Source: Gloeopeniophorella convolvens
Lineage: Eukaryota > Basidiomycota > Agaricomycetes > Russulales
Direction: 5' to 3'
Length of the DNA stretch: 64,000 nucleotides
Assembly (NCBI GenBank): GCA_022496205.1
Contig: WTXD01000004.1
Span: forward strand, 1 to 64,000
Made by a program: the position numbers and the translations under genes. Shown piece after piece: positions 1,361-52,800 of this stretch; within the stretch, counting starts at the first letter, position 1; the number at the start of each line of letters is the position of its first letter. The notes beneath the pieces were generated by a model that made no database searches, was not told the origin of the DNA, and was given only the letters and a program-made list of their open reading frames with translations.

Positions 1361-2610
1361 CTAGTGTTCTGAGCAGTTCGACCTCCTTGAGGCCCTAGTG
1401 TTCGTGACAGCCTTGCTCGCTTTCTCGGTGTCTCCTTTTGCCACGTGGCCGAGTTGCTCATTTTGGCCGGGTTTGGCCGAGTCCTTGCAATCTTCGCGCT
1501 TCGCCCTGGTAATCTCTCGATTCATCTGTGCGAGCTTGTCATTCTCGGAGTCGTCAAACGTTTCCAAGCCTATTGCTTGGCCGAGATGCCACAGATCCTG
1601 GACGTCCCGAATTAGAGTGCATTAGTGTAGATTTCGACTGTGAATCACAGGGTTGTACGTACCGCACAGCGCGTTTGCACCGGCGTCGCTGTCATTGCCA
1701 CCACTTGATGGCACTTGGTGCGCAAAGCACGGACCGCGGCGTAGAGTCGCTTGCCATTGCGTATAGCATGCGCCTCGTCAATTGCAACAGCAAGGAAGCA
1801 CCGCCCATAGATTGTGTACTTTGCTCTTTTAGCGCTCCCATCGAGAGTAGTCGGTACGGCCAGGCCGCGTGGATCATAGAGCGTGGCAGATACCTGTGTC
1901 AAGACCTAGACGAAAAGATCAGTCACAGTGTTATCACCTACAGATCTCTATCGTTGGCTTACAGTGGAACTGGTGATGTACATGCGCATCCATGGCTCGT
2001 GTTCTGTCTTTTGTTGATAGTCTTCCAGACTTTCTCAGTCTGAGAGCCTGTGCCAAGAGGGATGATGTCGAAAGAGCCGTGAGCGAGATATCTGCGTGCC
2101 TCTACAGGCACTTGCTCCATGAGAGCTGGCGGAACTACGATGAGGAATGGGAGTTTCGGGATTCCCTTCTTAGAGAACTCAAGGTCGCCTGTGTCAACAT
2201 CGACAAATTTCTTCCAGCCATCTTTGCCTTCTAATTTCGGAGTGTATCATCAATGGATTAGCGAGCGTGTATGGGCTTACAAGCAAAGCATGCTTACTCC
2301 ACAATGCGCCGGGGTACTTTTTGTGTTGCTCGAATGCTTCCCTGTAGTATGCTAACATAGCAAAGAACGCGACGACCTGGATCGTCTTGCCTAGGCCAAC
2401 GTCGTCCATCAACAGGACAGGGCCTGAGGTCTCCGCACGTTACATCATCTTGACGACGCCCACAAGTTGATGCCAGCGAAGCTCGAGCGGCTCACCGTGT
2501 TCCTCGAGCCACTTCCGGCCTTTCTCGTCGGATGGGTCGTAATCACCGTCAGGGTTGATTTTCTCAGCAAAGAATGGGACCTTCTTGTTGAAGCACAGCA
2601 AAGGGTGGAG
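1361..2610 (-). pseudogene. SNF2-family helicase fragment, broken
   Basis: Minus-strand frames encode SNF2 ATPase blocks in the right order. There is a Walker A-type block (MDDVGLGKTIQ, about 2370-2410), a following helicase segment (LLVSPYTLANP), a DEAH box (IDEAHAIRNGK, about 1780-1815) and motif III (MTATPVQT, about 1665-1690). The reading is disrupted: a TAA stop at 2440-2442 precedes the Walker A region, further stops and frame changes lie between motifs I and II, and the N-terminal side ends abruptly where the LTR at 2611 begins. The C-terminal RecA lobe is not found; a basic, glutamate-rich stretch (1361-1567) may be a remnant of the linker. SNF2 proteins are DNA translocases of chromatin remodelling and repair; this copy cannot be functional. 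Confidence 0.75.
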
Positions 2611-3065
2611 TGACAACTGAAGGACACAGAGTGACGCTCAGTCAGAGAAGGTCAAAAGACTTGATTACAACAATACCTGAAGGACACAGAGTGACACTGT
2701 AAGGTAGTGTAAGTATAAGAAAGTAGAAAGGAGCGTAAGTGTACTTGCCTCAGTCAGAGAAGGTCAAAAGACTAAGGCTACAAAGGCGAAGAAAGAGGTC
2801 CTTATATATAGTAAGGAGCGACAGATAGCATGTGATAAACACTGCTTAGGAAGCCTAGGAGACCCACATGAAACGGAGTAAGAGTGGGTACCGGAGTACA
2901 GGGTGGGTCATGGAATGCCCTAGAAGAGTCCGGAACACGGAAACGAATGTGGGGCTGAGCACAGCCTTAAGTCTAGAACATTATGTACACAAGATAAGAT
3001 AGTCCTTGATCATTAGGTCCATATCTAATCTAATCAGAGCCGCCAGGACACTGTCCGTCTCAACA
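2611..3065 (-). mobile_element. Solo LTR, copy 1, with spliced duplicate in its R region
   Basis: On the minus strand this element begins TGTTGAGACGGACAG (3065) and ends TTGTCA (2611), giving TG...CA termini. It matches 9026-9527 in order and content, including TTATATA promoter motifs (about 2800-2811). No 5-bp target duplication is seen: TGGAG lies on one side and CCCTT on the other. It interrupts the SNF2 fragment on one side and the Tc1/mariner fragment on the other, so it may mark a rearrangement junction. Its 3' part has the layout exon B (2771-2749), GC-AG intron (2748-2697), exon A (2696-2677), spacer (2676-2660), then B' (2659-2637) joined directly to A' (2636-2617). Confidence 0.7.
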
Positions 3066-3645
3066 CCCTTCCTTTACTGGCTCCAGAGCGGCTATCTTCA
3101 TCACCCAATTGCAGCCTAACCAGTGGTCCCTTTTTGCCATGGGCAATGCAGCCCCAGAGCATGATTGATCTTCTTCCGCTAACAAAAGTCGGAACAATAT
3201 TCTCCACTAGGTATTCTTCTCCAGCTTTGCGGGTAACTCATTGATGCCCTGGCCGCTTTCCAGTCTCCAGGGAAACCTCATCGATCCAGATCACGGAGTT
3301 CCAGTTGCGCTTGGCATTAGCTCGAGCCCATGCCAACCTCCTGCGAACAGTTGACTTAGTGAGGTAAGGTTTACAATGAGCAATTTGTCGATGATAGCCA
3401 GCAGAGTTGGCAACATGTTGAACTTGACTCTCTGAAAGGCCTCCTACTATCTCAGCAACTTTGCGATAAGTGTCGAAGCGGTGTGTGCATAGAGTTCGGA
3501 TGATCCTCCGCCCAGTACGGTCATCAATTGCAGGTGGGCGGCCAGATCAGGGGAGGGAATGATAGGTGTGAAATTGTCGATCACGTTGGATGGTGTCATG
3601 ACAAGTGGACTTGGGAATGCCAGTTAATGTCGGAAAACTGGGGGA
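3066..3645 (-). pseudogene. Tc1/mariner-type transposase fragment
   Basis: One minus-strand frame gives a recognisable Tc1/IS630-type transposase: a helix-turn-helix region (RTLCTHRFDTYRKVAEIVGG, then KPYLTKSTVRRRLAWARA) followed by the start of the DDE domain (RNWNSVIWIDEVSLETGKR and SIMLWGCIAHGKKGP). The first catalytic Asp is the D of WIDE. The frame holds at least two stops, one before SGRPPAIDDRTG and one after KRPGHQ. The C-terminal part with the remaining acidic residues is missing because the sequence ends at the LTR boundary at 3065/3066. It is dead, but its 5' side still carries the TTATAA array described next. Confidence 0.75.
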
Positions 3646-3875
3646 GGGCTTATAATGTATAGGCCTTATAATTGCCTAATAAGACTAGCCCGATCGCTTA
3701 TAATTGAATTGTAATATCCGATAAACATATTATAATCAGATCCTCCCATGCTGTTCGATTATAATCTGGGTGACCTCACTTATCATGGGTAGCGTGATCT
3801 TACAGCGTCATGATAAGATCATGATTAGATTATCAGGGCCAGCACTGGATTATAGATCGCGGTGGTAATCTGATG
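3646..3875 (-). repeat. TTATAA-rich subterminal array of the Tc1/mariner element
   Basis: Upstream of the transposase fragment (minus orientation) lies a run of short palindromic motifs: TTATAAT, ATTATAATC, GATTATCAG and variants, at least eight in about 220 bp. It ends in a GCCCTCCCCCAGTTTTCCGA block immediately before the coding part. The same order (TTATAA motifs, then CCCTCCCCCAATTTTGCGAC) occurs at 17190-17640, and a weaker form at about 18360-18395. I infer transposase-binding subterminal repeats; this is not shown. Confidence 0.5.
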
Positions 3876-4042
3876 GAATCGCCTGTTGATGGCATCGAAC
3901 GTCCTTGTTTGTCGCCCCTGCGCCGCATCGCGTTGTCACTGCTACCTTACACCTCCAGGCCTCCAAGCATCAGGCTAGGCTGCTGTCTTTGAAGTACCAT
4001 CATTGATACATCCTCACTGTCAACCTTGCAGAGCCGTTATAA

Positions 4043-7000
4043 ATGTCGAAGCGAACAGCACCCACAAGTCCGAGTAAACCCTCGGCCTCGTCGAAGGCGA
4101 AGGCTTGTCCCACCTGCGGCCACTTCTTATCCCCTCAGGGGTATCCGGGTCATATCAAGGCCTGTTCTGACAGAGAATATGAAAGGGACGCTCAGGAAAG
4201 ATACGAACGCAAGCAGGCCGCATTGCGACGCTCAAAGGCAAATGCCAAAGCATCAAGTGAGTCGTTATCGCGCCGTTTCAAACCACTCATGCTAATGTTG
4301 TGGTCTGTGAGCTATCTAGCCTCTGTCTCAGCGGCTTCAGGTTTTGATGAGCCCGCCCCTCCCGATTTCCCCGAGTCTTCTGTACCCGACATCGGTCCTC
4401 CAGATTCGCTATTCAGTGCTGCAGGTGAGTCTGCACCTCTTCAGCCGGGTACAATACAAGCGACTTAAGGCGGCGTTGCGTAGGGACTCCGGCACTTGAA
4501 ACACCGCCAGCCTCACCTGCCATGCCCCAATCTCCTGGCGCTTCTATGGTGGGCCCTAAGCTCGGTGATATGCGAACGGTCTACCACCCCAACAGTGGCA
4601 GGCCAGTTTCCGAGCACACTTCTCGGCATCCAGGCAGTGCACATGGCGAGTCAGCACGCCCGATTCTCCCTGATGAGCCATGGAAGCCTTTTTTCAACAC
4701 GCGCGAAGACTTTCTTTTGTCTGAGATTCTGCTGGAATCTGGGATGAACAAGGGCCATAGTGACAGATTACTCCGGCTGATCCAGGCGTGTATCAGCGGG
4801 AAGGGCAAGCTCACGCTCTCAAATTATTCCGAGGTCCAAGCTGCCTGGCAACGGGCATCTCAGAAGCTGACACCCGTACGTACGCGTTTGATGACTACGA
4901 GGAACTGAATGACAATGTATTGTGCGTTTGATAATCTCTGATAGTTTGAATGCGAGACCGTCTCCGTACCGTACCAAAACGAAGAAAGAATGTTCGAAGT
5001 GCACTATCGGCCGCTTTGGGGCTGGGCTCAAGATCTTTTGACGAATCCGCAGCTGGCGCCGCACTTTGAGTGGGATGCACGGAAGATATTCAAGCACAAT
5101 GGGGAATCATTCGTCTGCATCATTGACGAACCATGGACAGGTGACGCTTTCTGGAATGCACAGGTAGTCACCGTTCAGTCTTGCCTAGTCGAGGTTCGAA
5201 TTGACGAATCTCGATAATCATCATAGATGCAGCTTCCTGAGGGTGCAAGCCCGTTCTGCCTTATCCTCTACGCGGACAAAACTAAGTTATCCTCATTTGG
5301 TACACAGAAGGGCTACCCCGTGGTCGTACGCTGTGCGAATCTCCCAGCCGAGATTCGTAATGGTGAAGGGATTGGCGGAGGGTGCGTCGTAGGCTGGCTT
5401 CCAATTGTGAGCGCGCTACCATTGAGACACGCTCGCAAATCCGTGCTGATCTGGCCATCCTGGATAGGTCTCGGATGACCCCAAAGAACTAAAGAAGCCC
5501 GCATTCGTAAATTTCAAGCGAATTGTTTGGCATAAGGCGTTCTATGCGATCCTGAAATCTATCATCATGCATTCGAAAACCGGGTGCTGGTTCCAATGCG
5601 CAGATGGTGCCCCTCCGCGATGGCTCTTTCCTCTAATCCTAATCTTGTCTGCTGATCTTGAAGAGCAGTATGTTCAGCCTTCTTAACCTTCTGAGCATCG
5701 CAGTTCGGTCTATTAACAGATTCGCATCATATAGGTGGTTCATAGCGCTTCTCCGAGGTATCAAAGGGAAGTTGCCCTGCCCTATCTGTTTGGTTCCGGG
5801 AGATCGACTCGCAGATCTTTCAACAACGTGGGAGCTTAGGATCTCTGAGGATATGCAGAAGGCTGTTAACGAAGCTCGAGGTATGAGAACAAAGTGTGAT
5901 GCCGAACGCCTGCTATCTGGGCTGGGCATGCAAGACGTTGACGTATGTGCTCCGCGATTCTGCGCATTTCGAATGTCTACTTACTAGTACCGGATCCATT
6001 CGTACTAAAGAACGTCTTTTGGCAAGTTCAGAACTCAGACCCTCATCGCGCGTTGTCATTCGATCGACTACATTCTAACAACAGCGGCTTGTTCGGCTAC
6101 CACCTCTGGAGAGAGTTCAAGTATATTGTCGGCGCTCAGTATGGGCGCATGGGATTGGCGAAGGTTAATGCACAGTATGTGATATTGTGACCTTAGAACC
6201 CTTTAACCCAACAAGTAGTGATGTTTCTGTTATAGATTCGATATGGCTCCGAGCTGGAGCGGCCTCACACACTTCAAGGACGCCATAACACTGTCATTCT
6301 CGGATGGCAAGTCCTTCGAAGATCTGTCTAAGGTTCGGGCATATTCATTGTCGAGACGTCATGGAATCAGTGATAGGGTCACACAAATCGAAGGTTGTAG
6401 TATTTGTCTCCCACAACGTGATCAAACAGACCGATCCTGAAGCCTGGACGCTTCTACGCGCCATACAAAGTTTTAGTATCTTGGACTTGTACCTCTCGTT
6501 TGAGATGCATACCGACGATACGATTGACGAAGGTCGACAAGAGATTCAGACCTTCGACAGTATCATGAAAATAACACACACTACTCAATGAGTAGTATCT
6601 GAATCAATCATATCTAATGCAGTAATAATAGGATTATGTTCGTCTGTGCAACTTGGATTCCGCTACCGAAGGTGACTCGGAATCAGACCCGGAAGACCCG
6701 AAAGATCCAGAAAATGGGTCTGGTAAATCATCCTCAGTGAAGAACTGGAATTTCCCGAAGTTCCATGCTCTTCAGCATAGCTTCGACGACATCGTCGCAA
6801 AGGGCGTAACTCGGAACTACAATACGAAGCCCAATGAGAAGATGCATGGCCCTCTCAAGAAAGCCTACTTGATGCGAACAAATTTCAAGGATGTCGGGCC
6901 ACAGGTAAGTATTCGCTCGATGATAGATTATCCATCAGTCTAATATGATTACTGTGTCATCAACACGAACACACCATACAGATCCTGAAATACAACCACT

Positions 7001-7957
7001 ATGCGCTTGTCACAGCTCTCATTCGCGGGATGTTAGATGCATTAGAGCGCCGAAGGCGCGAGGACGCTATCCAGGAATCCGCTGATGATTCAGACATAGA
7101 CGATGCATCGGAACCAGGTTCATAGGGCCTGAATCCAGGCTCGGCGCGAACCGAGGGTCCAGCTTCCGGTTCAAATGATGCTCAGAATGTAGTGGTCCCC
7201 CCAAAGTGCCCGAGCAAGGTTTTCGATGCAATCAACGTCACCTTGCGTTCGCAGCGCTCGTCAATATCACTGGCAACCCTTGAAGCTGATGGTGCACGGG
7301 GTGTACATTTCCACAACTTCGGCACAAGACTTTCGGCTTGGCTCAGCAGATCAATCCCAATCTATGAGATCAACGTGCCGCCCGAGACGTTACCGGTTCG
7401 GCTAGAACCAGGCTATAAGGTGCGCTGTCGTCTATTGGCTATCAATCATGTACGCATCATGCTGAACATCTTTATAGGTCACCGAGTATCAATCTTTGAA
7501 GGCAGTTTTTGAGTCAAAAGTAGACTTCAAACGCTACATTGACTTCGTATACTGCAACCCCAGCTTCCATGGCCAGAAGCGGTACGATTTTGTCATTGTG
7601 CAGGCCGAGGCTGGTCAATGCTTCTTTGCACGGCTGTTATTCGCTTTCACCTGCTCGATCGCCGACACAACGCTGGCCATCTGTCTCGTTCGCCCGTGCG
7701 AAGCAGCCTCTGGCACAGCGGCTCGCAATGCCAAAGATCGCCAACTGAAGTTTTGCCGCGTTCGTGAGAAGACATCGGTCGAATTCATCTTTGCGCGTTC
7801 CATCATACGTGGGGCACCATTGATCGAGAGCTTTGAGCGAGCTAATGAGTATCTCGTGATGGATGTGGTGGATCACGCCGGCGATCTATTCCTCCGTTGC
7901 AAGGAATTGTTCAAGCAGTACGTTACCATTATCCGCGACCCGCGCAGTCAGACCTAA
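4043..7957 (+). CDS. Plavaka-type transposase, 13 exons, near-intact
   Basis: The spliced product is about 1044 aa and the phase is maintained across all junctions. Introns I assign: 4257-4331 (length divisible by 3, optional), 4425-4483, 4876-4944, 5164-5226, 5407-5467, 5668-5734, 5943-6010, 6175-6235, 6333-6393, 6571-6631, 6905-6981 and 7420-7477. Family features: an N-terminal C-x2-C...H-x3-C finger (CPTCGHFLSPQGYPGHIKAC), then the typical blocks LILYADKTKLSSFG, LILILSADLEEQ, LSFDRLHSNNSGLFG, ASHNV-like FVSHNVIKQ, WNFPKFHALQHSFDDI and NTKPNEKMHGPLKKAY, ending in a C-terminal accessory domain. Two lesions are visible. The tenth intron begins AT instead of GT at 6571, and an in-frame TAG lies at 7123-7125. 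I did not identify terminal inverted repeats. Plavaka elements are DNA transposons abundant in Agaricomycetes; this copy looks recently active. Confidence 0.8.
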
Positions 7958-9025
7958 CGACGAATCCCCTCCGTATATCAATAGTATCCACGAGCCAGAA
8001 TCTGAGCTCCCAACGCCCATTCCTGCTGCGCCCTGATGTACACCGTGTCCCGTTGCGCCCTCCGGCACTCGAGACGCGCGCCGTGCAACGTCGTGCCTGC
8101 TCTCCCACTAGTACTGATAGTGTATTAAATAAATATATTCGACGCAGCGCTGCACGACTTTCCTCTAATGATACGTTCTCTGAAACGATTTCATTCCGTA
8201 CACACCTATGATAGCGCCGGCGCACACAACGAGGACAGTCCCTGGGAACCATTCAAGCCTGGTCATCATTGACATACTCGGAAAATATGGCCACTGTGGA
8301 CTGTTTCAAATCACGTGACATTCTGAGCTGAAGCCTGATTGCTTACGTCGTCGCATCTCTCACCTTGCATTGGCTATCGATAGTTCAACATAGCGTGTCA
8401 TTCCCAGTATCAGCACGTTCACCTCAACCTTACTCCTCTCCAGTATATGCGATGACACTGTGATAGTCGGACCAGTCTATAGCAGCAGCTTGACACTGCC
8501 AGACTCTGAAATAATCGACTCACAATGATTCATTGACACCCCGCCATCGCGACCCCCCACAGGTGCGTGTCAATACTTTATGTACCTCATGCGCTCCGAA
8601 TAAAACTAGAAATACCGGCACGCGGGTTGCAGCCGTTGTTCATACGAAGTATAGGGTGATATCTCTTTACTTCGGCACTCTTGGGCTACAACTGTCGACA
8701 GACCTGACCAGCGGACGCCCACCAGAAAACACCATCGCTTTATTGGAATTGCGCACCCGCCCACGCGTCAAAACGATCAACCTCGCCGAGGCCCGTGCTT
8801 GGATGTTCATGGTGAGCCCCTTCTGATGCGACGAGATGTGATCTTCCAGGATTCCAGGGCTTATCATCTTGTAGTGCCGAAGCTTAACAACGCGGATCTC
8901 TGGGATGAACATAAGGCCCGCTAGGATGTGTTGCCTCTGAGGAAATGGAATATGGATGTCTTGTTGTGCCCGCAGTCCACACGCTCGCACGCACAGGCAC
9001 CTGTTGAAGCGCAGCAGAAACAGGG
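7958..9025. other. 3' flank of Plavaka gene and unassigned sequence
   Basis: The first part (to about 8530) is the 3' side of the transposase, with an AT-rich TTAAATAAATATAT stretch near 8125 that could serve 3'-end formation. From about 8530 to 9025 the sequence directly abuts the next LTR. A minus-strand open frame of about 107 codons (8667-8990) has plausible composition, but I cannot place it in a family. It could be the start of a retroelement internal region belonging to the LTR at 9026. Confidence 0.3.
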
Positions 9026-9527
9026 TGCCAACTAGGCAAGCAAGAGCAAAGCTCAGTCAGTGAAGTCAACAGACTGAATGTCATTGGCGCAATACCTAGG
9101 CAAGCAAGAGCAAAGCTAAAGTAACTAGGTAAGCGCAAGTCCGGAAGTTCCGGAAGTAAAGTACTTGCCTCAGTCAGTGAAGTCAACAGACTGAGGCTAC
9201 AAGGGCGAAAACAGCATCCTTTATATACACAAAAGGAGTGTGGTTTGCATGTGATAAACAACAGCAACATGTGATAACCAGAGACCCATGTGAAAGCGGA
9301 ACTAAAGTGGGTCGACCGGAACTGCAGGTGGGTCAACCCGGAACTGCATGTGGGTCATGGAAGGGCCTGGAAGAATCTAGAACAGGAACGAAAGTAGGTA
9401 CAGCCTTAGGGGCTAGAACATAATGATGTCATATACATTGTAGATCAGATAGCTCGCAGATCACCGAGTCCCTTATCTAATCTAATCAGAGACGTCCTTC
9501 CTGTCCTGAGTCCTGTCCGTCTCAACA
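9026..9527 (-). mobile_element. Solo LTR, copy 2, with spliced duplicate in its R region
   Basis: On the minus strand this begins TGTTGAGACGGACAG (9527) and ends TTGGCA (9026). It is the same family as 2611-3065, with clear divergence and indels, and has a TATATAAAGG promoter at about 9216-9225. Flanks CAGGG and GCACC show no target duplication. Its 3' part repeats the layout of copy 1 exactly: exon B (9190-9169), GC-AG intron (9168-9116, 53 nt), exon A (9115-9096), spacer (9095-9074), then B' (9073-9052) fused to A' (9051-9032). B' and A' are base-for-base identical to B and A here. Confidence 0.75.
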
Positions 9528-11206
9528 GCACCATCGATCACCAGACTGGCATTGTTTCCTCCCATGCACATGCTTCCCCTAATCGTTCACGTGATCCAGT
9601 CACGAATGGGTACGCGTGCGAAGCTTTGCTGCTGGAAACTTACTAACGCCTTGAATTCGTCGTCAAACTAAACAGGAAGCAAGGAAATGGCGTGAATATG
9701 GCGATAAAAGATCAATTTAAAACCGCTTGTCGTATTCAGCACCGTCGCCGGTTCAGCCGATGACAGTGTGCCCACCTCACATATGCTGACTAGACTGTAC
9801 AGCGGATGTGCATTTAGTCTATAGCAAATATGTCTAATACTCGATATGCAGCTGCATGTGTGCCGCGAGAAGAAGCTCGCTCGCGAGAAAGCTGTGGTGG
9901 CACCGGCACCAGAGCGCTCTCCGCTCACCCTCGCCTGCACACACCCACCACGTACTATCCTTCCTACACAGACACCCATGGACTGCAAAACTCTCAACAA
10001 GGACTCGTCCCTGTACGCAATACTATCGTTTCATCCTTGTACACTGACAGAAACGGTTCAGGATTGCGCTCTCTGCTCCCGGGGATCGCAGCACGTCCAC
10101 CGGTGTACATCAGGGCGAGATCAGTAAGATTGGTCAGGAGATCGCCCCCGATGAGAGTGGAGACTCTCTGAATGTGCGTAATGAGAGCCTCCAGACGGAT
10201 GCAAGGACTCTGATGAAACCCCCATCCACCTTTCAGGACAAACCACGGGAGACCGCGCCCCCGCTCTCGACGCTGACGTGGGCTGATGGGGACGATAAGG
10301 CCGTAGACCGACGCAAGGACCTCAAAGGTCCTACAGAAGCACACAAGGGCGCGAATGCCCCACCTATCGAGGATCGACAGGACGCACCACCGCGCCTTTC
10401 GTCGATCTGGGCCGATTGGAGTGGAAAGGCCTTGGGCGGACGCTGCGGGGAGACTCCCGCAGGCCGATCCGAGGATTCTGTCCCCCCTACCTCTGGGGAT
10501 TGATGGGAGACGGCGCTCCAGGGCCCTTCGCTACTCTCCACTACCGGCTGCGTAGACGGTTTGATTTTGAGCGAGGAGTTGGGAGTAGCTACCTTAGTGT
10601 ATTGGGACTCCACACCAGCGACAGCGAGAAGGGATGCATGGAAAATTGGTTTGGCTTCTGGAAACATATGTTCTCCACTACCGATCCACAGAGATGTGCA
10701 TAGCATGCAGCCAGTGCGCACCTCCGAGCTCGTTGTACCGCTATGTAAGCCTAATCATCACTCATCTTGGGCACTCAGTACTCATTCGCGCCTTGGGCCT
10801 GCCCCATCCAGGCTGTATGGAACACTTTAAGCCGTCCTACTCTGCAATCAGGACCTCTCATGCCTTCCATCAATCAATTAGCTCACTATTTGCCGCCACC
10901 GAGACCTCTGTGAAGTAATTTGTTCTCGAGTCAGCTAAAATCTGATTTCTAAAACCCTGTGCTCTAGCATATTATTATTATGATCGCCACCCGCCCTTTT
11001 GAGGTGGTGCGCGAGTCCGTACTGCCACTGTGGCCCTCAACAGCACAAGCGCGCCACTCAGCTCCTGATGCGCACGCCCCTGAATCGTCGTCCTGCACGG
11101 AACGTTGTTCACCAACGTCCAGATCGGCAATTCCTCCTCCTTTCTGGCTCGTCTCCTTGAGTGACACTCGGCTATTAAGGGGTTTCAGGGCTCACCGTAG
11201 GCTATA
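9528..11206. other. Repeat-flanked region without a recognised gene
   Basis: I recognise no family on either strand. The most protein-like stretch is the plus-strand open frame 10048-10503, described separately. The many other frames of about 60-160 codons overlap it on both strands and are typical of GC-rich shadow frames. Confidence 0.4.
10048..10503 (+). other. Open frame without start, possible orphan exon
   Basis: From the TGA just before 10048 to the TGA at 10501-10503 the plus strand is open for about 150 codons. It encodes a polar, acidic-basic stretch (for example GEISKIGQEIAPDESGDSLN, then TWADGDDKAVDRRKDLKGP and IWADWSGKALGG). It contains no early ATG, so if real it would be an internal or last exon. 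The repeated TWAD/IWAD pattern hints at a weak internal repeat. No family is recognised, and the other strand is also open (10233-10721), so chance is a serious alternative. Confidence 0.2.
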
Positions 11207-12057
11207 ATGGCAACCATCAACATTGGGGCGCTCTTGGAGTACCGGCGCTCGCAGAGCGTCCTGCGCCGACCAGGCGCTCTCGGTTTGCTGGATCGTAACC
11301 TTACCGCGATCGCTGCCGCGATCAAGGTCAAGCTTGCGAGAAGGACACAGGCCAACGAGCAGATGGGCATCGATGGCGAGGACCACAGGAAGAGTAGCGA
11401 CAGGAGAGTCGGCGTGCTCTCTGGTCCCCAACGCCATCCAAGTGTCCCCTCCGCTCTCCGAGGCTGCCTCGGCGAGTTACCTCTCGCATTCAAGATGGCG
11501 CTTAAAGAGCTCACCTCCGCCATGCTGGCTCACGCTCTCAAGATATGCCCCCCTCCCAATCCGTACATCATCATTCACTGACATCCTGACGTCCCTCCAA
11601 ACCATCCTGCGATACACGGAGGTCCTCGCTACTGTGGAGCCCGTTACTCCTCGGGCAGAGCTCGCCACATTTAGCAAGCGCGCGCCACACGTGTCGTCCA
11701 AGTACACGCAAAGCGACAAAGTCAGCAGCGGGAGCGTGTTGCCCGAGGACTGGGCCGTGCGCGGCGTGGTGCGACCGGGACGCCACGCCTTTGAGCGCAC
11801 CTTCTGAGAAGGCTGTGACTGGCACCCGATAGCCGGAGGTGAGCGATGCGCTCGAGATGCGCGCCAATTCAAATGCGCTCACCGATTCAGAGCACCTCGG
11901 AAAGGCACGTGGAACTACCAACGATGAGGACAACAAGCTCGCCTCGCGCAGCTCTGAGTGCTCGGCTTCCGGCGGGACAGCATCAAAGCGCGTATCATGG
12001 CATTTCGTCGATGGAGCACTGGGAGCTCAGGATGGCAAGGTGACGCGGGGTGGCTGA
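11207..12057 (+). pseudogene. Possible degenerate gene, weak EST1/SMG-like resemblance
   Basis: An open frame starts at 11207 (MATINIGALLEYRRSQSVLR). A second, frame-shifted block (about 11560-11807) reads DILTSLQTILRYTEVLATVE and ends with LPEDWAVRG. A third (11839-12057) is Ser-rich. The LPEDWAVRG string recalls a motif at the end of the EST1/SMG DNA- or RNA-binding domain, but no other hallmark is visible and the frames are not joined by convincing introns. I call it a possible decayed gene only. The opposite strand is open over much of the same stretch. Confidence 0.2.
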
Positions 12058-12717
12058 GGACTGTGCCGCCAGCTGACAGAATACCCTAGTCCGTTGACAA
12101 CGCGTCGGGTGCTAAATCGCCGCCCGTAATGACAGCACAATGCGCCGTTGCTCTTAGGTGCGTGTATGCTCTTAGACCGACGTGCCGGTGGCATGAGCAC
12201 CTTCTCCCCTGTTCTATCGGGGGTTTTTCATAGGGCGAAGTTGTTGCATCAACATGTAATGGTGTCAATACAATATACGCGGTTGTAGGCCACCCTGCTC
12301 CGTCTCTCAAACAGGGAACGGCAGAGATTGTTCAACAGGCTACACGTAAAGTTTGTAGAAGGCCCGTAACTGTACATGAGGAGAATTCGTCATTCAGGCC
12401 ACCTCGTTCCGCGGATGCAACGGATAATGAGACTTGTGCGTTCCTCAGTACGTTTCACTGTGACAGCTACATCTGAAAATGTAATTTTGCGCAGAGCTCA
12501 TGCTGTAGCACACGGCGAGACATGCTGCAGCCAGTGTCGACACGTGTCGAAATGCGCGATTATTATGTACATATCACTGGCGTTGCCCGGGACGAGAGTC
12601 GCTGCTGATTTAGATTTTCGAACATATATAACAGAGATGTATAACGTCCATCAAAGCCCGGCCTTGGTGCTCTCCGCCCCGCAGACCACTACCAAAACCC
12701 GCCGCCCCCTTTCCGTC
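12058..12717. other. Upstream region of the 545-aa orphan gene
   Basis: No gene is recognised. A TATATA motif in the context CATATATAAC (about 12623-12632) lies about 90 bp before the ATG I chose for the next gene and is a plausible promoter. The reading frame stays open upstream through 12376, so a longer N-terminus cannot be excluded. Confidence 0.35.
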
Positions 12718-14545
12718 ATGAACCGCCGCGCTCGTACATCAAACCCTTTGGGGCTCCACCCAGATTCCAATGAAGAGACACCCGATATGGTGGATGAAGC
12801 TGAGGACTATGCGTGGGTATCCGACCACAAAACTATCGCTCGGGCTGAGGCTGCGCTGGTGCCCATTCCCCCTCAACTCTCTGGCTCAGCCCTCCGTGAC
12901 ATATGTGATCTACTCCAGGTTATGTTGTGGACGTTCCCTCTGACTACGCATCTACAGGCCCTGAAGAACAACCAGCTGGCGCTCCAGAAGATCTATACGG
13001 ACTACAAGGATTTGAGGATAGAATACGACTCGCTTCTCCACAAGCTTAAGTCATTCAGTGCCAGTTCAGCGCCTCGTGGCAGAACCCGCATGCCTGCGCA
13101 AGATCAGCAGATCAAATACGCTGGGAGCAGGTTCTGCATAACGGAGCAGCTATTCATGTCAAGGACCATCTTAGAAATACCTCGTCCCGACGACATCGAC
13201 CGCTCTGTCCCCCCGGATCTCGATGATCGAGAGGAGCTCGATCTCCACATAACCGCTGCGCTATACGACAGCCTCCCGCCTAACATGCAAGAAGCCCTTG
13301 CGAATCCCAACCGTAGGCCAGGCTTCATAAGTGTTGTAAGTCATACTCCTATTGCGGCCGACAAAACGATTTGAACTGACCACGAAACCTGTCATCTCCT
13401 ACAGTTCTATAGGCAGTTCGGTCAGGAGCGCTCGAACACCGTAGGTTATGCACGCGAAGGAGCTGCAATCCTTCTTGGACTGCCACTAGGTGCCCTCGAG
13501 TCCGACAGTGATCGTTCTGCGCTCATGCCGAAGATGATCAGACGCTTGAGGGACCCCTCGGATCCGGACGAGGAGTTCCCAGAGTGGCCGCTTATACTTT
13601 TCAAGGATGAAGCACCCCCGGATTCGGGGAACCCGGAGCCCTTCCTCAACGAAGATCTTATCAAGGTGAGTACTAATCAACATAATCTTTGCAACTATGA
13701 TCCCTAACACGAGCTTCAATACGCAGTTCACCAAGTACATCCTCACCCGTGAAAAAGTCAAGCATGACAAGAACGGCAAGCCACAGATCTCGGCCACACG
13801 CAGGAAGAGATTGGCACTATGGAATGTAACCGAATGCACGTTTGGGATAGTGGCTGCAGCAGCAACTTTCGTACGTGCAATTTAACTTCCGCGGTAGACT
13901 AATTTTAAACTTACAAACTTGAGTCAACAGCTTCTCTTCGTTTGTAGCACCGACACCACGTTTGGGAACCAGAACCGTAGAGCCACTCTGGGGGCTTCAG
14001 GGACTCAATGGGAGGAGCGCTTCGAACTCTATAAGAACACCATTCTTTGCTCACCAGAAGAATTCCACTGCAAGCTTCTTCAGAGGTACAACGAAGTCAT
14101 ATTTGGTATCAAATCTGAGAGTGCTGCTCCAAGTGGGCATGCAGACAAGCAAGTGCGCACATCCCGTACTAAGGACCTCCTTATGAGGATGCACAAGGCA
14201 GGCCCTGCACTCCTGGACGACCCCAAATCATCTTCAGAATCCTCACCCTCTGCAGCATCCATTTTCCTGGCCTCTGCACCTATTTCCGCTGAAGCCACAC
14301 CACCTCCCGACTCCCTAGCCCCATCTAACGCTGATCTCGATGCTAAAGACCCCGGCTCCGAGGTGCCTGCTGACGATCTGCTGACTGTCACCCTGGGGTC
14401 CAAAACCCGGAACAACAGACCCAGTGGCACGGCACTCCATCAGAGCCAGCCCAAGGTCAAGAAGGGTGTACTGACAAGCAATGCACCTGTTGTCAGTGTG
14501 CCACGCCGGTCGGCACGCACTGGGAATCAGACTGTGGCCCGCTGA
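12718..14545 (+). CDS. Hypothetical fungal protein, four exons, 545 aa
   Basis: Four exons join in phase: 12718-13335, 13405-13665, 13727-13870 and 13931-14545. Introns of 69, 61 and 60 nt have GTAAGT, GTGAGT and GTACGT donors, so this is a real, intact gene model. I do not recognise the fold. The N-terminus is polar, then comes a helical, charged segment (about residues 85-120, LKNNQLALQKIYTDYKDLRI) with coiled-coil character. A conserved-looking core follows (FTKYILTREKVKHDKNGKPQ, then RRKRLALWNVTECTFG). The last 140 residues are Ser/Pro/Ala-rich and end in a basic tail. No signal peptide or membrane segment is seen. The start at 12718 sits about 90 bp from a TATA motif; an in-frame ATG at 12637 is the alternative. 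Its position between transposons suggests a lineage-specific or TE-associated family. Confidence 0.6.
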
Positions 14546-15330
14546 TTTATGGGTTATGCGGGATTGATGAGGGTTCCTGCCATGCCGTTCTGCATGCAGC
14601 ACAATTTCTGGTTAATAGTCTGTCGTTATCAGTGGAACAGAAATTGATAATACAATCAGCACTGTCACGCCTCCTCTTGTTTAGACTGTGTGGTTTACTC
14701 CCTTTGATTTGTCAATGAAGTTGCTTTGCCACGTCTGATGCCAGATGCTTCCGTGTGTTGACTTAGCCAAATTTTGTGTGAACCAGACCGGCAGGACTGC
14801 CCGGCACTCGCACGGTCAAGACTGCCAGTCGGTGACACCCACAAACTCAAAGTCAACACCCACTACCACCTGTTTCCTGCTGGCACCTCAAGTTGTTGCG
14901 CTCCCCTTCCCCCATATTACTTGCTGATGGCGCCGCGGGGCACCGCCAAGGCCCCTGTGCGACGTAGTGTATCACATGAGCAATGATCCCTGGCTCCTAG
15001 TGTCACCCCCATGATGTGTGATGTGGCACGACGTAACCGGCTGATCAAGTCCTTGCTGGGACAGCATTGCCATACATGACCACTTCCACATCATCGAGGG
15101 TGAGTGCTTGATGGGCGAGTGCTCACTCGTTGCACCGTAGTCTGACTGCTGCCTGGCCTAAGCTGACAATTCCGTGCGAAGGGCCGCTCCGCGAATGCCC
15201 CGTCCTGCCCCCTGCCTTCGTCGCTTGACACCCCGCCGCCGCTCCCCACCCTGGTCTGGTACCAGGAGTGGCACTGTTTCTCGCGAGACGCGCTGTCTGC
15301 GTGCATCGCTTTCTTGTATCACTTTGTGTC
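14546..15330. other. Intergenic, no gene recognised
   Basis: Short frames only. I see no domain, tRNA or clear repeat. The end of the interval leads into the ATP7/tubulin mosaic. Confidence 0.4.
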
Positions 15331-15925
15331 AAGTCCTGGGAGGCCGTTTCAGATAAGCACGACATCGACGGCTTCACTCGCATCTACTCCAGCCTCGGTC
15401 TTGGAAAGGGTACGCTGGCCAGCCTATCCTCTCTTTATCCTCCTCATCGTCGACCCGTTCCTCGCTCCAGAGATCGTCGCATCCCTGCAGGCATTCCGCA
15501 AGCGCCACGCGGACGTGCAGCGCATCGCTGGCCAGCTCAGCGCCCAGCCAACGACCATCGACCTCGCGCACTACCGCTCCGTCTTGAAGAACAAGGCCGT
15601 CGTCGACGAGGTGGAGAAGGTCTTGTGCGACTTCAAGCCCGTCACGTACGACGTCAGCGCACACATCAAGGCGATTGAGACATTCGAGACTAAGGCGGTG
15701 CGTGTCCCCGCCTTCCCACCTTTGACACACTATCTCATGGTCTTCCGCTATTTTTCCCCTTCTTTATGGATCCTGCGCTGGTGTTTCTCTATTGGTTTAC
15801 CGGTCTCACGTGTGCAGGTCGCCAGGGCGAAGGAGACCGAGGTGCAGATCGACGTCGAGCTGAAGGATCTCCAGGCGACGTTTGCAAACATTGAGGAGGC
15901 ATGCCTTCGAGGACCTTACAGTGCG
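15331..15925 (+). pseudogene. ATP synthase subunit d (ATP7-like) gene fragment
   Basis: Mitochondrial F1Fo ATP synthase subunit d is clear: FTRIYSSLGLGK, then a 61-nt intron (15410-15470), then ASLQAFRKRHADVQ, TTIDLAHYRSVLKNKAVVD and FKPVTYDVSAHIKAIETFE. After a second intron it reads VARAKETEVQIDVELKDLQA. The copy is broken. There is no start methionine: before FTRIYSS the frame reads KSWEAVSDKHDIDG, which resembles the N-terminal region of beta-tubulin rather than subunit d. At about 15900 a 2-nt loss puts the expected next block (PFEDLT) out of frame, and the C-terminal third is absent. The retained introns show that it came from genomic DNA, not a processed mRNA. Confidence 0.8.
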
Positions 15926-15949
15926 TTTGCGTAACCCCGCATCGTCCTT

Positions 15950-16360
15950 CTCCGTGATTCTGACCCTCCACTCGGAGTGCGATGGCCTTTACAAGAGTAG
16001 CAATGACCTCCAGTCCGAGTGCATCCCCGCCTATTACATGGCAACGGGACCGGCGCGAACGAACATGCCCCTCTCGCAACCCCAGTCAATCTTGAGCCCG
16101 GAACTATGGATGCTGTCTGCTCAAGACCGCTTGGTGTCAGCGTATTCTGCCCGGATAGCCTCATGTTTGGCCAGAGCGATGCGGGTAACGACTGGGCGAA
16201 AGGACGTGAGTGACTTCGATACTGCGAAGTCAGCTAGTCCCTTTGCGAACATGTGGATTAGCACGCGTACCGTGACTTGTCTTTCCCCCATGCTGATTAT
16301 TCTATATAGACTTGTCGACGCCGTCCTTGACGTCGTTCGGAAGGAGGCTGAAGGCACGGA
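15950..16360 (+). pseudogene. Beta-tubulin gene fragment, decayed
   Basis: Three separated blocks match beta-tubulin in order: DGLYKSSNDLQSECIPAYY (about 15978-16040), NLEPGTMDAVCSRPLGVSVF then FGQSDAGNDWAKG (about 16089-16205), and LVDAVLDVVRKEAEGTD (about 16313-16362). The gap between the last two fits an intron (GTGAGT at 16206). Functional residues are changed: the PRAVLVDLEPG region is largely lost and RSGP has become CSRP. The reading then runs into Thr/Pro/Ser-rich low-complexity sequence, so about three quarters of the gene is absent. It directly follows the ATP7 fragment. Confidence 0.75.
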
Positions 16361-16375
16361 TACCCCCACCCCATC

Positions 16376-17189
16376 CCACTCCATCCCGCCTCATCCTTGC
16401 ATGCACATGCGTCGTTGTATCTGAGCTCCACTGTGCGCCCGGCATTGGCACAGGTGCCTTCCATACCACCTTGTATCTGACGTGTGTGTATACTGACACG
16501 CCATGCCGCAGCTCCTTGCGAGCCGCCTCCATTGCCGTCGACGCCGCCCTCCCTTTCCGCCCAAGGGTTACAACCATCCCTCTCGTGCTCGCTCCCGCAT
16601 TACCTGCACCTACACCCCATCCCAGCAACGGCAGCCACGCACGCGCTCTTACTCCGCCGTCCCCTGCCCCTCCGCTGCCACCGGCCGAGCACTACCACAC
16701 ACCCCCTACAACGCTATGCGGTGACATGCACCACACGGAGCCATCACCGCTCCTTCCCCGCTCTCCACACCTGTACCCAAGCCTGCACCGCAGCTGCAGA
16801 TGCTGACGACTGCAATGTGGTCGGCCGGCGACTACTTCCGCGCAAAGTTCGCTGCCAAGGCGGGCCCGCAGCCGCTGCGCCCGAGCTCCGCGCCTGCCGC
16901 CACGCACAGGTGCGAGAACGAGGACGAGGACTCGCTGCGCACGAGGCTTGGGCTCGGTGCGGTGCGCGGTTACGACGCGGAGGACGAGCCGGCACGCGGG
17001 GGCGTCGGCGCATCGTCCAAGCTCACCGTGATGTTTGGGTTCGGCCAGGGACGGTGGATATGGCCAAGGAGCTTTCTGCTGGGCTGTGACCCCCACTGTG
17101 GACGATGTGGACGACAATGAGGTGCATGCAAAGACGACATGCACCACACGGAGCCATTGCCGCTGCGCCCGGCAGAGTGCGGCGCCATC
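16376..17189. other. Low-complexity intergenic sequence with a 22-nt direct repeat
   Basis: The sequence is C/A-rich to about 16800, then GC-rich. A 22-nt direct repeat (GACATGCACCACACGGAGCC then AT) occurs at 16723-16744 and 17136-17157. Between them a plus-strand frame (16800-17120) encodes a charged stretch with no family I recognise. No gene is called. Confidence 0.35.
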
Positions 17190-17640
17190 ACGAGTTATAA
17201 TAGCTGTGTAGAATTAAGTGTAATATGCATAATGGGTTATAAAGATTGGTTGTAAGAACAATGGCCACACAGCCATCAGAGTGGTCATATTATTGTAAGA
17301 ATGGTCGCACAATTATAAGAGACGATTTTTTCGTTGAGGCAATTATAAGATCATGCTGAGAGTATAATCGAGGCTGCTCATTGGACAATGTCGGGCATGG
17401 TCTGATAATCTCACTGGATCTTATACTCGGCCGGGTGGTCTGATAATCTCGCTAGATCTTATACTCGGCTGTGGTGGTCTGATAATCTCGCTCCGGGATC
17501 TTATACCCGGTTGCAGTGCCATTATAAGATCGACAGCTCGGCTTATAACCATTATAAGACTGATGGGATCTGAAATCCATTACATCGGTTATAATCACTT
17601 ATAAACCCCTCCCCCAATTTTGCGACATTAAGGCAGAGAT
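17190..17640 (+). mobile_element. MITE-like element with TTATAA motif array
   Basis: There are no coding frames. The stretch has at least ten TTATAA/ATTATAAG motifs and a 38-40 bp tandem repeat, and it ends with CCCCTCCCCCAATTTTGCGA followed by CATTAA. The end block and motif array match, in order, the sequence upstream of the Tc1/mariner transposase at 3066-3875. I infer a non-autonomous relative. Precise termini were not established. Confidence 0.5.
17398..17516 (+). repeat. Three tandem 38-42 bp repeats
   Basis: Units start at 17398, 17436 and 17475. Each contains TGGTCTGATAATCTC and then GATCTTATACYCGG. The unit carries CTGATAATC, the inverse of GATTATCAG seen in the array at 3646-3875. 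Confidence 0.7.
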
Positions 17641-17981
17641 TTTACGAACTGAGTAGTCTAATCCATGGAGGGTGAGGACCTTAATACGCTTGGATGGTGT
17701 GAGCTCAACAGGTCTGTTGAATGTGCGTTCGGTTACCTACCGTTCCATTTCGCTGCGCGCGCGTGTGGACAAACGCGCGTGGACTCCGGTCATTTCTACT
17801 TTATACTTACACACCAGCCCGGGCGCTTCGGCCCGGGCTCTCATCGTTTCGTACGCGCTAAGTCGCGCTCGCGCTCGCATCCCCTGCAGCGCATTTTGGT
17901 TCCGCTTGCTCCTTTTATTTGATACTGTATAGTTGTGGCTGATGGACATGTCATCGCCCCGAGTATCCTGTAGCCCCTCAG
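17641..17981. other. Unassigned sequence before the B-A repeat
   Basis: No gene is recognised. A TATA-like GATACTGTATAG (about 17920-17931) lies about 50 bp before the exon-like unit at 17982. The stretch TGTAGCCCCTCAG just before 17982 resembles TTGTAGCCTCAG at the same place in LTR copy 2. Confidence 0.3.
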
Positions 17982-18149
17982 TTCTCGTTGGCACAGCGCG
18001 CGAGATACTGAGGTGAGCATCTTTTGTGGTGTGTGTTGCATACCTGTACTTACCCGGCCCAGCCGGCGTCGTCTTGTGTACAGGTGAATATATACAGTTC
18101 TCGTTGGCACAGCGCGCGAGATACTGAGCCGGCGTCGTCTTGTGTACAG
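17982..18149 (+). repeat. Exon-intron-exon unit followed by its intronless copy
   Basis: Unit B (17982-18012, 31 nt) is followed by a GT-AG intron-like segment (18013-18062, 50 nt: GTGAGC...TACTTACCCGGCCCAG), unit A (18063-18083, 21 nt) and a 14-nt spacer (18084-18097, GTGAATATATACAG). Then comes a second B (18098-18128) joined directly to a second A (18129-18149). Both second copies are identical to the first. The layout equals that in the two LTRs at 2611 and 9026 although the bases are unrelated. Confidence 0.8.
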
Positions 18150-18547
18150 ACTGCCTTTGCGCGCTATCGAAAGAACCCAATTATCCTCCTTTAATTGCTA
18201 CAAGGTCCTCGGGCCATGGTAGTACAGAGCAAAGATGACTGACGGTGTAACTACAGTGTGACATGTGTGACGGTGTCCGGGTACTTTCCGTGACAACGAG
18301 TACATCACTTGTCCAAAAAATAATAATAATAATGGTCCTGGTCATCTCAGTCACAGTCAATTATAAACTGGCTCCCGATTTTCCGACATGTCATGCTTAG
18401 AATGGCCTCGACCTCAAGACACCCTTGGGAACCACACACAACCTCCGAAACCCGGGGCGATGCGTGCATCGTCAGATCCCTGAAGAGTATACTTACTACG
18501 GTGCGGTGGTCGCTAGTGTAGGCAACCAGTTATGAAATCTATACTAT
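18150..18547. other. Intergenic with a third CCC..ATTTTCCGACAT block
   Basis: No gene is seen. At about 18360-18395 the sequence AATTATAAACTGGCTCCCGA followed by TTTTCCGACAT resembles the end block of the Tc1/mariner and MITE-like elements. A short run of AATAAT repeats precedes it. Confidence 0.4.
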
Positions 18548-20012: not shown

Positions 20013-24020
<4,008 letters not shown>

Positions 24021-49857: not shown

Positions 49858-52800
49858 TCACGACCATGAGACGGTCGATTCACCGTTGAGGTCAATCCGG
49901 AGATCAGATACAACAAGGCGCTGGACATCGGGGGTGTAGTTCCATCTGCGAAGAGGGACGTCCGTCCCGTTGATTAGCACTTGATTAGGGGCTTGGTCTA
50001 CCCCAAGGATGGTTATGATGTCCAGACGCCGGACAATGCGGAATCCCCCATCCCCAGAAAGCTCTAATCGTTGACTGCGTGCATGGAACGCGAGCGTCCT
50101 GTTGACCGCAGGGGAATCTTGGCTTGGCATCGTTTCCCCATCATCGACGTGCGCAGTCCCATACGCATCACCGCCTGCGTCAAGGGAGACAAGTAGAGCG
50201 TACGGCCCCAAGGCACTGGCACTCGTCGTGTACCCTGGCTGCGAGTGTAGTAGCAGCGCGCCACCGGAACGGACGTGAAGTGGGATGCGGCCGAGTGGTG
50301 CATCAAATTCTGCTGTGCTCCCAATGGTGGGCAACGTTACCGCAGCATGACTGTACCAGTCACGCCAAATGACCTTCCCGCGCCCTGGAAGGAAGCCTTC
50401 GTAGTTGGGTGAGCTATGTGGGCCTGCCAGGAAACAAGTACAAGACTCACCTGATACCGACGATACGTTTGGTGTCAAAACAGGGGTGACCAGGATATCA
50501 CTCCCAACCAAAAATTGGCGGTCGACATGGAGCAAGTCCGGCTCTTGCGGGAATTCGAAAAAAAGGGCTCGGATGGGCGGAGTCCCATAAAAAGATGCAT
50601 TCGCAAAGAGCGTATACTTTCTCTCATGCTCAGAATTGTGGCCGAACCCCGATGATTGAAGCGAGACCTACCCAATACGGAAGGAGAGCGTAGCGCACGG
50701 AGATGGCGGCTCGACTGGCATCTCTGACGCTGTCCCACCTGTAGGGTTCTTGCGGTATCGCGCCGCGGATATTGTGATTGCGGAAGAAGGGCGTGAACGC
50801 TGCAAGCTGCATCCAGCGATTGCACAGTTCCTCGTCCGTGTTACCGACTGTAAAAAGCGGATGCATCAATACCACGTATTGGTAATTCACGGCAGATTGG
50901 AAAGTCACCGAAACCACAGGCGTCAGCTCCCACCATTGGTATCTGATAAAGCTGGAACTGGAGAACACCCTGGATACTGTGGTGCAACGACGACCATTTA
51001 CTCCAATTGTCCCCGAGCTTACGAAGAGTGTTTGAGCCGACACGCGGTCTTGCGATATATTTTGTGTCACTTACCCAGTGCCCTGTCCATTTACCGGATC
51101 CTGCGAACGTCGAACGCCCGATAAGAAACGGACGTTTACCCGGACGCAATTGGCGGAGTGCAAGATTCGTTGCTCGCGACATCAAGTGCCCAAAGAGATT
51201 GTGCACGTTGAGTTCAATGTGACCTCCATAGTGAATGGCGGTAGTTGCAATAGTTTGTGCAGACAAATCGCCGAGGGCTGTCAAAAACCCGTGCTCTCAG
51301 ATCCACCGCCACGGTGAACAAGATAGACTGAATGCCTACCGTTGTGAATGGCATATGGCGGCCCGCCCGCCGTGTCGACGACGTGCTTCCCGAAACCAGC
51401 ATTGCTGTCTCTCCCAGTGACGTCATTGACTCTCGCATGGGCTCCTGATCCATAAGTGAGCACTCCATTGGCAGTGATATTTCCGCTGGACCCGAAGGTG
51501 ATCGCGTCATATCTGGGCTTGCGTCAGAGACGAGGAATGAAGAGATCGGGATGTGAGTCGTACCCTTCCGGGAAGTCGACGACGGGATTACCAGGCTCCC
51601 CTGGAAGGATGATTGGGAATGAAGTGTTGACTTGATCGGAGTTGAGAGCACTGGAGCAGAGTCAGCACTCATTACGCCAGCCAAAGGCGGAGCACGAAGC
51701 TCCTACCAAGATCCATCACAGAATGATCTCGGTTCGTTCATGTCGAGCCAAAGCCCCGAGAACGCAACGCCGATCGCTGACCAGTTTCGCAGTGCTTCCG
51801 TCCACCACAGCTCCACATTCGGGGAAAGCCAGTCTGGAAAAACCTGAGATCTCGTGTTAGCCTGGTTGTTTCGAGTGCGTCGGCAGAAAGCCTCCCGCTC
51901 ACGCTATATCCCGGCCATACTTGCCCGACGAGCAGAGATGCACCTTGACTGCGGATGAAGATACCGCTAGGAGGCACGGCACGATAGGGTCATGTCCAAA
52001 TGGAGTAGTGCAAATCAGGGTCTTACAGTTCGTCCCCACGAGTGAAAGGGTCGTACTTGCGCTCCGGTCAGGAAGAAAGAAGATTCTTTACGGAAGCGTG
52101 GAACTTACAACATCCGTCGCGTTTGCCACGAGGGCCACTGAGCCATGGACGATGGGGATATCTAAGTACATTGGAAGTCAGCTAACAGCGTACCTTCCGC
52201 ATCCATAGTGACCAACAGTGCTGCGCGTTTGCATTCTGTGTCGGAGAGAGATCACACGGCTGTGCTGTCAGATAAAGCGAAAATCTACCAAGTCCTCCAT
52301 GAACCTGCGTAAATCGTTTTCGGGAAATGCGACAGGATCAACGGTAAAATCTCTGTAATCATGGTATATTTCCAAGTCGTTCCATATCGCTGCGTATAAA
52401 GAGTTATGGGCGTCTGCTAGAAAGACGAGAGAGGATGACCGCACATTCGAGAGGGACATCCGCCGCGCGCATTGCGTTCACTTGCTTCCGTGTTTCGGCC
52501 AGAGTCGTGTAGCCCCATCTACATAGGTGGAATCCGAAGGCCCAGTTCGGCTGCCGAGCAGGCAAGCCGACAACTCGGCCGTACTGTTCGATGACACTGT
52601 TGGGGTCGGGTCCCGAGAAGAAGTACAAATCAAGGGTGCCACCGATGGTGCGGTACTGTATCAGTGATGTTTTCGAGTCTGGCGGTGTTGCTAGGATAAT
52701 GTCCGAACCAGCTGCGCTACGCGCGGTCAGGCTCTGAGGTAGCCGGCAGTGGCGCTAACTGGACACACCTGGATAGGAAGACGCCGTGCGACAGGAAACG

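Follow-up and report, generated by a model that had tools for sequence, protein, structure and literature searches.

Three LTRs with a shared layout

The window analysed here comprises the first 64,000 nucleotides (nt) of contig WTXD01000004.1 from the basidiomycete Gloeopeniophorella convolvens (assembly GCA_022496205.1, forward strand). By reading, three loci in it are solo long terminal repeats (LTRs) in which two short segments, B and A, each occur twice, first as B1 and A1 on either side of an intron-like stretch and then, behind a spacer, as a fused B2A2 copy. The repeat units lie at 2771-2617 (-), 9190-9032 (-) and 17982-18149 (+), belong to families F1, F2 and F3 and had been given with correct coordinates, lengths and letters in the initial annotation. 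Exact scanning and reading returned the same values, with B/A of 23/20, 22/20 and 31/21 nt, introns of 52 and 53 nt (GCAAGT..AG) and 50 nt (GTGAGC..AG), and spacers of 17, 22 and 14 nt in F1, F2 and F3 respectively. The fused copy was identical to its parent segments at two loci and had one base changed, in A, at the F1 locus. The annotation spoke of two LTRs, which these are, but the third locus is an LTR as well. It also held that the A units share no sequence; this is nearly so for the two extremes, but forms bridging F1 and F2 were present among F1 relatives (L099 and L086, the latter with CGTCACCTTGCATGCCTTCAG).

A scan of the window for exact repeats of at least 14 nt in both segments found these three loci only, with a fourth site at 12 nt and six in all at 10 nt. 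In 200 dinucleotide shuffles scanned on one strand, hits numbered 0, 1 and 9 at minimum repeat lengths of 14, 10 and 9 nt, respectively, and chance repeats were dropped as the origin of the layout on these counts.

Table 1. Features of the three LTRs in the window
Feature	Position	Strand	Basis or remark
F1 solo LTR (TGTTGAGA..TTCAACA)	2586..3065	-	read from sequence; no target-site duplication (TSD) seen
F1 exon B1	2749..2771	-	start site predicted at the A of the preceding AG
F1 intron 1, 52 nt, GCAAGT..ACAG	2697..2748	-	splicing predicted
F1 exon A1	2677..2696	-	exact repeat scan
F1 proposed intron 2, 60 nt	2617..2676	-	splicing predicted
F1 intron 2 parts	spacer 2660-2676, B2 2637-2659, A2 2617-2636	-	
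F2 solo LTR	9002..9527	-	TSD GCACC, read from sequence
F2 exon B1	9169..9190	-	exact repeat scan
F2 intron 1, 53 nt, GCAAGT..TTAG	9116..9168	-	splicing predicted
F2 exon A1	9096..9115	-	exact repeat scan
F2 proposed intron 2, 64 nt	9032..9095	-	splicing predicted
F2 intron 2 parts	spacer 9074-9095, B2 9052-9073, A2 9032-9051	-	
F3 solo LTR (TGTTGAAT..GCTACA)	17715..18202	+	TSD AGGTC, read from sequence
F3 exon B1	17982..18012	+	exact repeat scan
F3 intron 1, 50 nt, GTGAGC..CCAG	18013..18062	+	splicing predicted
F3 exon A1	18063..18083	+	exact repeat scan
F3 proposed intron 2, 66 nt	18084..18149	+	splicing predicted
F3 intron 2 parts	spacer 18084-18097, B2 18098-18128, A2 18129-18149	+	

Distribution of the layout in the genome

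The 36.7 Mb assembly (404 contigs) was searched for B-intron-A-spacer-BA units and further copies were present, falling into nine families, F1-F9. The layout U3-AG-B1-intron1-A1-GTspacer-AG-B2A2-U5 was thus common to at least nine LTR families; the letters of B and A differ from family to family and both copies within one LTR change together. F1 and F2 are high-copy families (the best 40 of 351 and the best 40 of 356 candidates, respectively, were scored), and a search with B1 joined to GCAAGTAC gave 119 F2 matches genome-wide at up to 3 mismatches. F3 is small, F4 and F5 were first met among weak F3 matches, and F6-F9 were found upstream of a common primer-site word, with L132 as the second F9 LTR. 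F3 is distinguished from F4 by 8 sites in B and 7 in A, and in L039 and L048 both copies show these differences alike.

A finder set to require an AG, one of a list of donors, an acceptor AG, GT directly behind A1 and copies that nearly match yielded 94 LTRs in the retrieved stretches (F1 56, F2 14, F3 6, F4 2, F5 11, F6 1, F7 1, F8 1, F9 2), which are not 94 independent insertions, as some are both LTRs of one element. The finder's counts of donors and acceptors follow in part from these requirements, and scans made without the splice-site demand revealed identical sites. Two hits of the layout scan without splice sites, one on the minus strand of L039 over a tandem array and one in an AT-rich stretch at L044, were not counted.

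Primer site and identity of the elements

Sampling was anchored on ACAGGTTATGGGCCCTG, which matched 82 places in the genome with at most 1 mismatch; 50 upstream stretches were retrieved, the other 32 were placed from earlier searches, and the tally was made by scan and by eye. The layout was present at 54 of the 82 places (24 in retrieved stretches, 21 F2, 5 F1, 3 F5 and 1 F4), two of the F1 cases being placed by LTR length alone and the F4 case (L051) being interrupted by an insertion. Exact B-A-U5 LTRs stood at 11 places, and at 3 (L084, L090, L107) AG-B-A-U5 was joined to an AG in U3 with the TATA word gone. The other 14 adjoined LTRs without the layout (L091, L103, L113-L115, L119-L127), so it is not shared by all LTRs with this primer word and belongs to one group of copia-type LTRs.

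Gag_pre-integrs, rve, SH3_retrovirus and Pol_BBD were found in one polyprotein in a piece of F2 (L078; F2 only). The reverse transcriptase domain RVT_2, sought downstream of the integrase, was not within this retrieved piece, a partial one. A search with the F2 protein gave 587 relatives; among the best 120 of these, PF07727 was frequent and names from Trametes, Fibroporia and Phanerochaete occurred; the search carries no information on LTRs. Outside this genome, viral_contigs gave 0 matches to the primer word and none to the F2 protein piece. Full-length pairs with primer site, TG..CA LTRs and 5-bp TSDs were found on C123, C397, C257, C69 and C22. Two F2 pairs, L002/L129 (C404) and L004/L008 (C370), lie ~5.8 kb apart with the same 5' flank and without matching TSDs, and are perhaps recombinants. 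In Drosophila copia, the primer site is one for an internal part of the initiator tRNA-Met. The present elements resemble Ty1/copia in having gag-pre-integrase followed by the integrase core (F2 piece), the GGTTATGGGCCC primer-site word after the LTR, TG..CA LTRs and 5-bp TSDs; they differ in the two proposed introns and the spliced leader copy within the LTR.

Predicted introns and transcript ends

From sequence we argue that the leader holds two introns and not one, the second running from the GT of the spacer to the AG of A2. It is needed because the complementary DNA (cDNA) would otherwise read B-A-spacer-B-A-U5 and the LTR would grow; an extra unit was seen in one odd copy only (L139) among the LTRs read. 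Judged by their letters, a donor, a branch-like word and an acceptor are all present in the LTR for intron 1 and likewise for intron 2. YTNAY was found in the tail of intron 1 in 93 of the 94 LTRs. For intron 2, the donor-like word after A1 was GTATTG in 67, GTGAAT in 20 and one of six others in 7 (GT being required by the finder), the branch-like CTGA ended B2 in 92 and A2 ended in CAG or TAG in 93. Spacer, B2 and A2 together measured 59-69 nt in F1-F7 and 49-50 nt in F8-F9, a common size for fungal introns. Removal of both introns in silico gave AG-B-A-U5, the string that follows the spacer. Two other splicing schemes were rejected: the spacer is too short at 14-22 nt to be an intron of its own, and joining B1 in one step to the GAG in front of A2 would not account for the match of A1 and A2.

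A TATA-type word, searched in its F1/F2 form, preceded AG-B1 in 67 of the 94 LTRs at a distance of 35 nt (64) or 37 nt (3). AATAAA was found in the spacer of 13 LTRs, F4 and F5 by their letters, which would place the RNA 3' end in B2; no such word was seen in the other families.

Odd copies of two types were met in F5, one case each. L068 (C101) has a partial second B2, a duplication at the B2 start, after AGTTCTCGCCTT. L139 (C27) reads B-intron1-A-spacer-BA-spacer-B-U5, with an extra spacer-B and no third A before U5.

Concerted change between the copies

B1 equalled B2 in 74 of the 94 LTRs, A1 equalled A2 in 70 and both pairs agreed in 59. Within LTRs, 57 of 4194 sites were discordant; transitions made up 54 of these differences, the pattern expected from decay after insertion. 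F1 (55 LTRs) had 36 discordant sites in all, compared with a mean of 101.6 and a minimum of 78 in 2000 random re-pairings. A TC/CT variant in B of F1 was carried by both copies in 20 of 21 LTRs, and two variants of A by both copies in 7/7 and 2/2. Between F1 and F2, U3 differs by ~1.2 changes per site and A is hardly alignable. The exception to the TC/CT pairing, L010, combines a B1 and a B2 from different F1 subfamilies, which would follow if its cDNA and its 3' RNA stemmed from separate elements.

The initial annotation had proposed a single intron, with spliced strong-stop cDNA joined once per LTR to a non-homologous 3' end. The AG start word and the CA-like spacer end at the joint would suit such an event, and L068 and L139 resemble off-register joins. 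We consider this very unlikely, as retention of intron 2 would leave B-A-spacer-B-A-U5 in the cDNA and as copies that co-vary inside nine families suggest upkeep and not single events. The spliced 5' leader, copied into strong-stop cDNA, remains the best source of the fused copy, but only once the second intron is added. That the fused copy was made separately in each LTR does not agree with its behaviour in the nine families, where the copies track each other and look maintained and rewritten, and at steady state transfer would be homologous, with B-A cDNA landing on B2A2. A non-homologous jump may have founded the layout.

A variable base before AG-B2

The base before AG-B2 was C in 43, A in 28 and T in 28 of 99 F2 matches, compared with at most 14.1% minor letters at the other 34 positions; the pattern tolerated 3 mismatches, so worn copies are missing from this count. 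Over the 94 LTRs the same base was A in 34, T in 30, C in 26 and G in 4, and the base before AG-B1 was C in 92 and T in 2. In F2, C preceded AG-B1 in all 100 listed of the 119 matches, the pattern itself having asked for C there though allowing up to 3 mismatches. Reverse transcriptases can add extra bases at the end of strong-stop cDNA, and a variable base exactly at the predicted cDNA end fits such additions.

This base also sits where a U3/R border would be expected if transcription started at AG-B2, with B2A2 an ordinary R region and B1-intron1-A1 an upstream relic. That arrangement is hard to credit: the F1/F2 TATA-type word stands 35-37 nt before AG-B1, constraint would be expected on the base ahead of a start site and is seen ahead of B1, and a relic would not go on tracking B2A2.

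Loss forms

Exact B-A-U5 LTRs numbered 23 in seven families (F2 8, F1 8, F4 3, F3 1, a sister of F6 1 (L081), F5 1 (L117), F9 1 (L133)), a figure pooled from different searches that is not a rate. Loss of intron 2 only (B-intron1-A-U5) was seen once in F2 and once in F4 (L060). A U3 tree of 54 rows, 45 from intact and 9 from loss copies and all with at least 250 nt of U3, did not resolve the F2 loss forms as one lineage or several, with 33 of 45 inner branches open. In L084, L090 and L107, which are F1 5' LTRs, AG-B-A-U5 is joined to CTCCTAG in U3; given the same flank, the three are probably one event.

Recombination between the repeats would give the same set of losses, and the loss forms by themselves are therefore compatible with an RNA as well as a DNA route. 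A history in DNA only would consist of a tandem duplication in an ancestral LTR, deletion of the intron from one copy and short-tract gene conversion between the 20-32 nt repeats, with loss forms arising by B1/B2 or A1/A2 recombination. The AG at both ends of intron 1 would permit microhomology deletion. Such a history predicts neither the hypervariable base directly before AG-B2, nor repeat borders at splice sites and at the start-motif AG in nine families, nor the AG-B-A-U5 join in U3 of L084, L090 and L107, and we know of no gene conversion between ~20-nt repeats in every family. We regard it as improbable.

Other repeats in the window

An inverted repeat occupies 1-1355 (500-nt arms, 98% complementary, 355 nt between them); by eye, a piece of it resembles a 90-nt stretch next to L096 (F9), and this stretch has matches at many genomic places. 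A tandem array with a 38-nt unit in 2.8 copies lies at 17398-17510, in an AT-rich stretch upstream of the F3 LTR. An inverted pair of 176 nt, 73% complementary, was found at 23012-23187 / 50670-50845, with a second pair at 23459-23520 / 50337-50398.

Discussion

These data make it likely, in our judgement, that the elements have Ty1/copia-type LTRs with two leader introns, in which B2A2 acts as the landing site for spliced cDNA. The support comes from the layout in nine families, the concerted change, the variable base, the exact loss forms and the common primer-site word; splicing, the start site, the RNA 3' end and the direction of rewriting are the predicted parts. Transcription would start at the A of the AG before B1. 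Intron 1 (GC or GT to AG, between B1 and A1) and intron 2 (from the GT after A1 through spacer, B2 and A2 to the AG before U5) would be spliced out to give the leader AG-B-A-U5. Strong-stop cDNA from this leader would equal AG-B2-A2-U5. Its pairing partner would be B2 (and A2) in the unspliced LTR close to the 3' end of the element RNA. Extension would copy the spacer, A1, intron 1, B1 and U3 from the 3' end, and the new LTR would retain both introns, with B2A2 rewritten from B1A1. Landing of the cDNA on B1 instead would produce the intron-free LTR B-A-U5. We lean towards seeing the whole as a self-restoring intron cassette, in which doubly spliced RNA would be the template and the introns would still be kept, a pre-spliced copy inside intron 2 would catch the cDNA and be rewritten each cycle, and splicing would make the R repeat.

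Several observations weigh against this mechanism. As the DNA-only history would have it, the two loss forms seen are precisely the products of B1/B2 or A1/A2 recombination, and the one form that recombination cannot yield, loss of intron 1 only, was not found in F1 (up to 2 mismatches) or F2 (up to 3 mismatches), the families searched. The mechanism offers no explanation for the persistence of intron 1 in the 3' LTR, where occasional loss by splicing would be expected. Full-length elements on C123 and C397 have B-A-U5 in both LTRs and matching TSDs; this form is thus passed on in replication, and the introns are therefore dispensable. The loss forms read keep C before AG-B, though transfer would land there, for which selection on the start motif is offered as an excuse. 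The LTR pairs of C335 and C404 differ at the base before AG-B2, the C404 pair being one of those without a matching TSD. The first two letters of A in F1 (CG) had 16 changes in one copy and 1 in both, and A1 CATCAC is common to five F1 LTRs, so that certain variants confined to A1 recur, perhaps through CpG decay. Both LTRs of an F5 element on C257 carry the same B2-only change. Finally, U5 of L096 (C257, F9) has AAAAGTAACA instead of GATCTTAACA after AAGTACCA when compared with its relatives L132 and L133, and misfits their intron 2 acceptor.

In a literature search, titles and the starts of abstracts described no LTR with an intron plus its own spliced copy. We know of no pre-spliced leader copy in the LTR of SIVmac or HIV-2. 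Transcripts of these viruses have a functional intron inside R-U5 of the LTR, the same part of the leader as predicted here from sequence, and the available part of that account mentions no pre-spliced LTR copy (PMC1766366). In the present elements, by comparison, the spliced leader would be both template and repeat. RNAs of the LTR retrotransposons Ogre, EVADE and Cer1 are spliced by the host, as the elements here are predicted to be, with introns that serve subgenomic RNAs; the part of the source consulted has nothing on LTR-internal introns or their restoration (PMC12786077). In retroviral first strand transfer, as outlined in the accessible part of the source, strong-stop cDNA pairs with a repeat at the 3' end of the RNA, and it matters exactly where the RNA has its 5' end (PMC4668388). 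The cDNA would pair with a 3' repeat here too, but the 5' repeat would first have to be created by splicing, and its counterpart at the 3' end would be a pre-spliced copy.

If the mechanism is true, spliced RNA would be copied without intron loss, though introns in transcribed regions of retroelements are expected to vanish on such copying, and the terminal repeat for strand transfer would be produced by splicing. DNA footprints (the AG-B2 base and the paired changes in B1/B2 and A1/A2) would then reveal start site, transfer point and splicing without RNA, and any fungal genome with such LTRs would be usable as a test ground.

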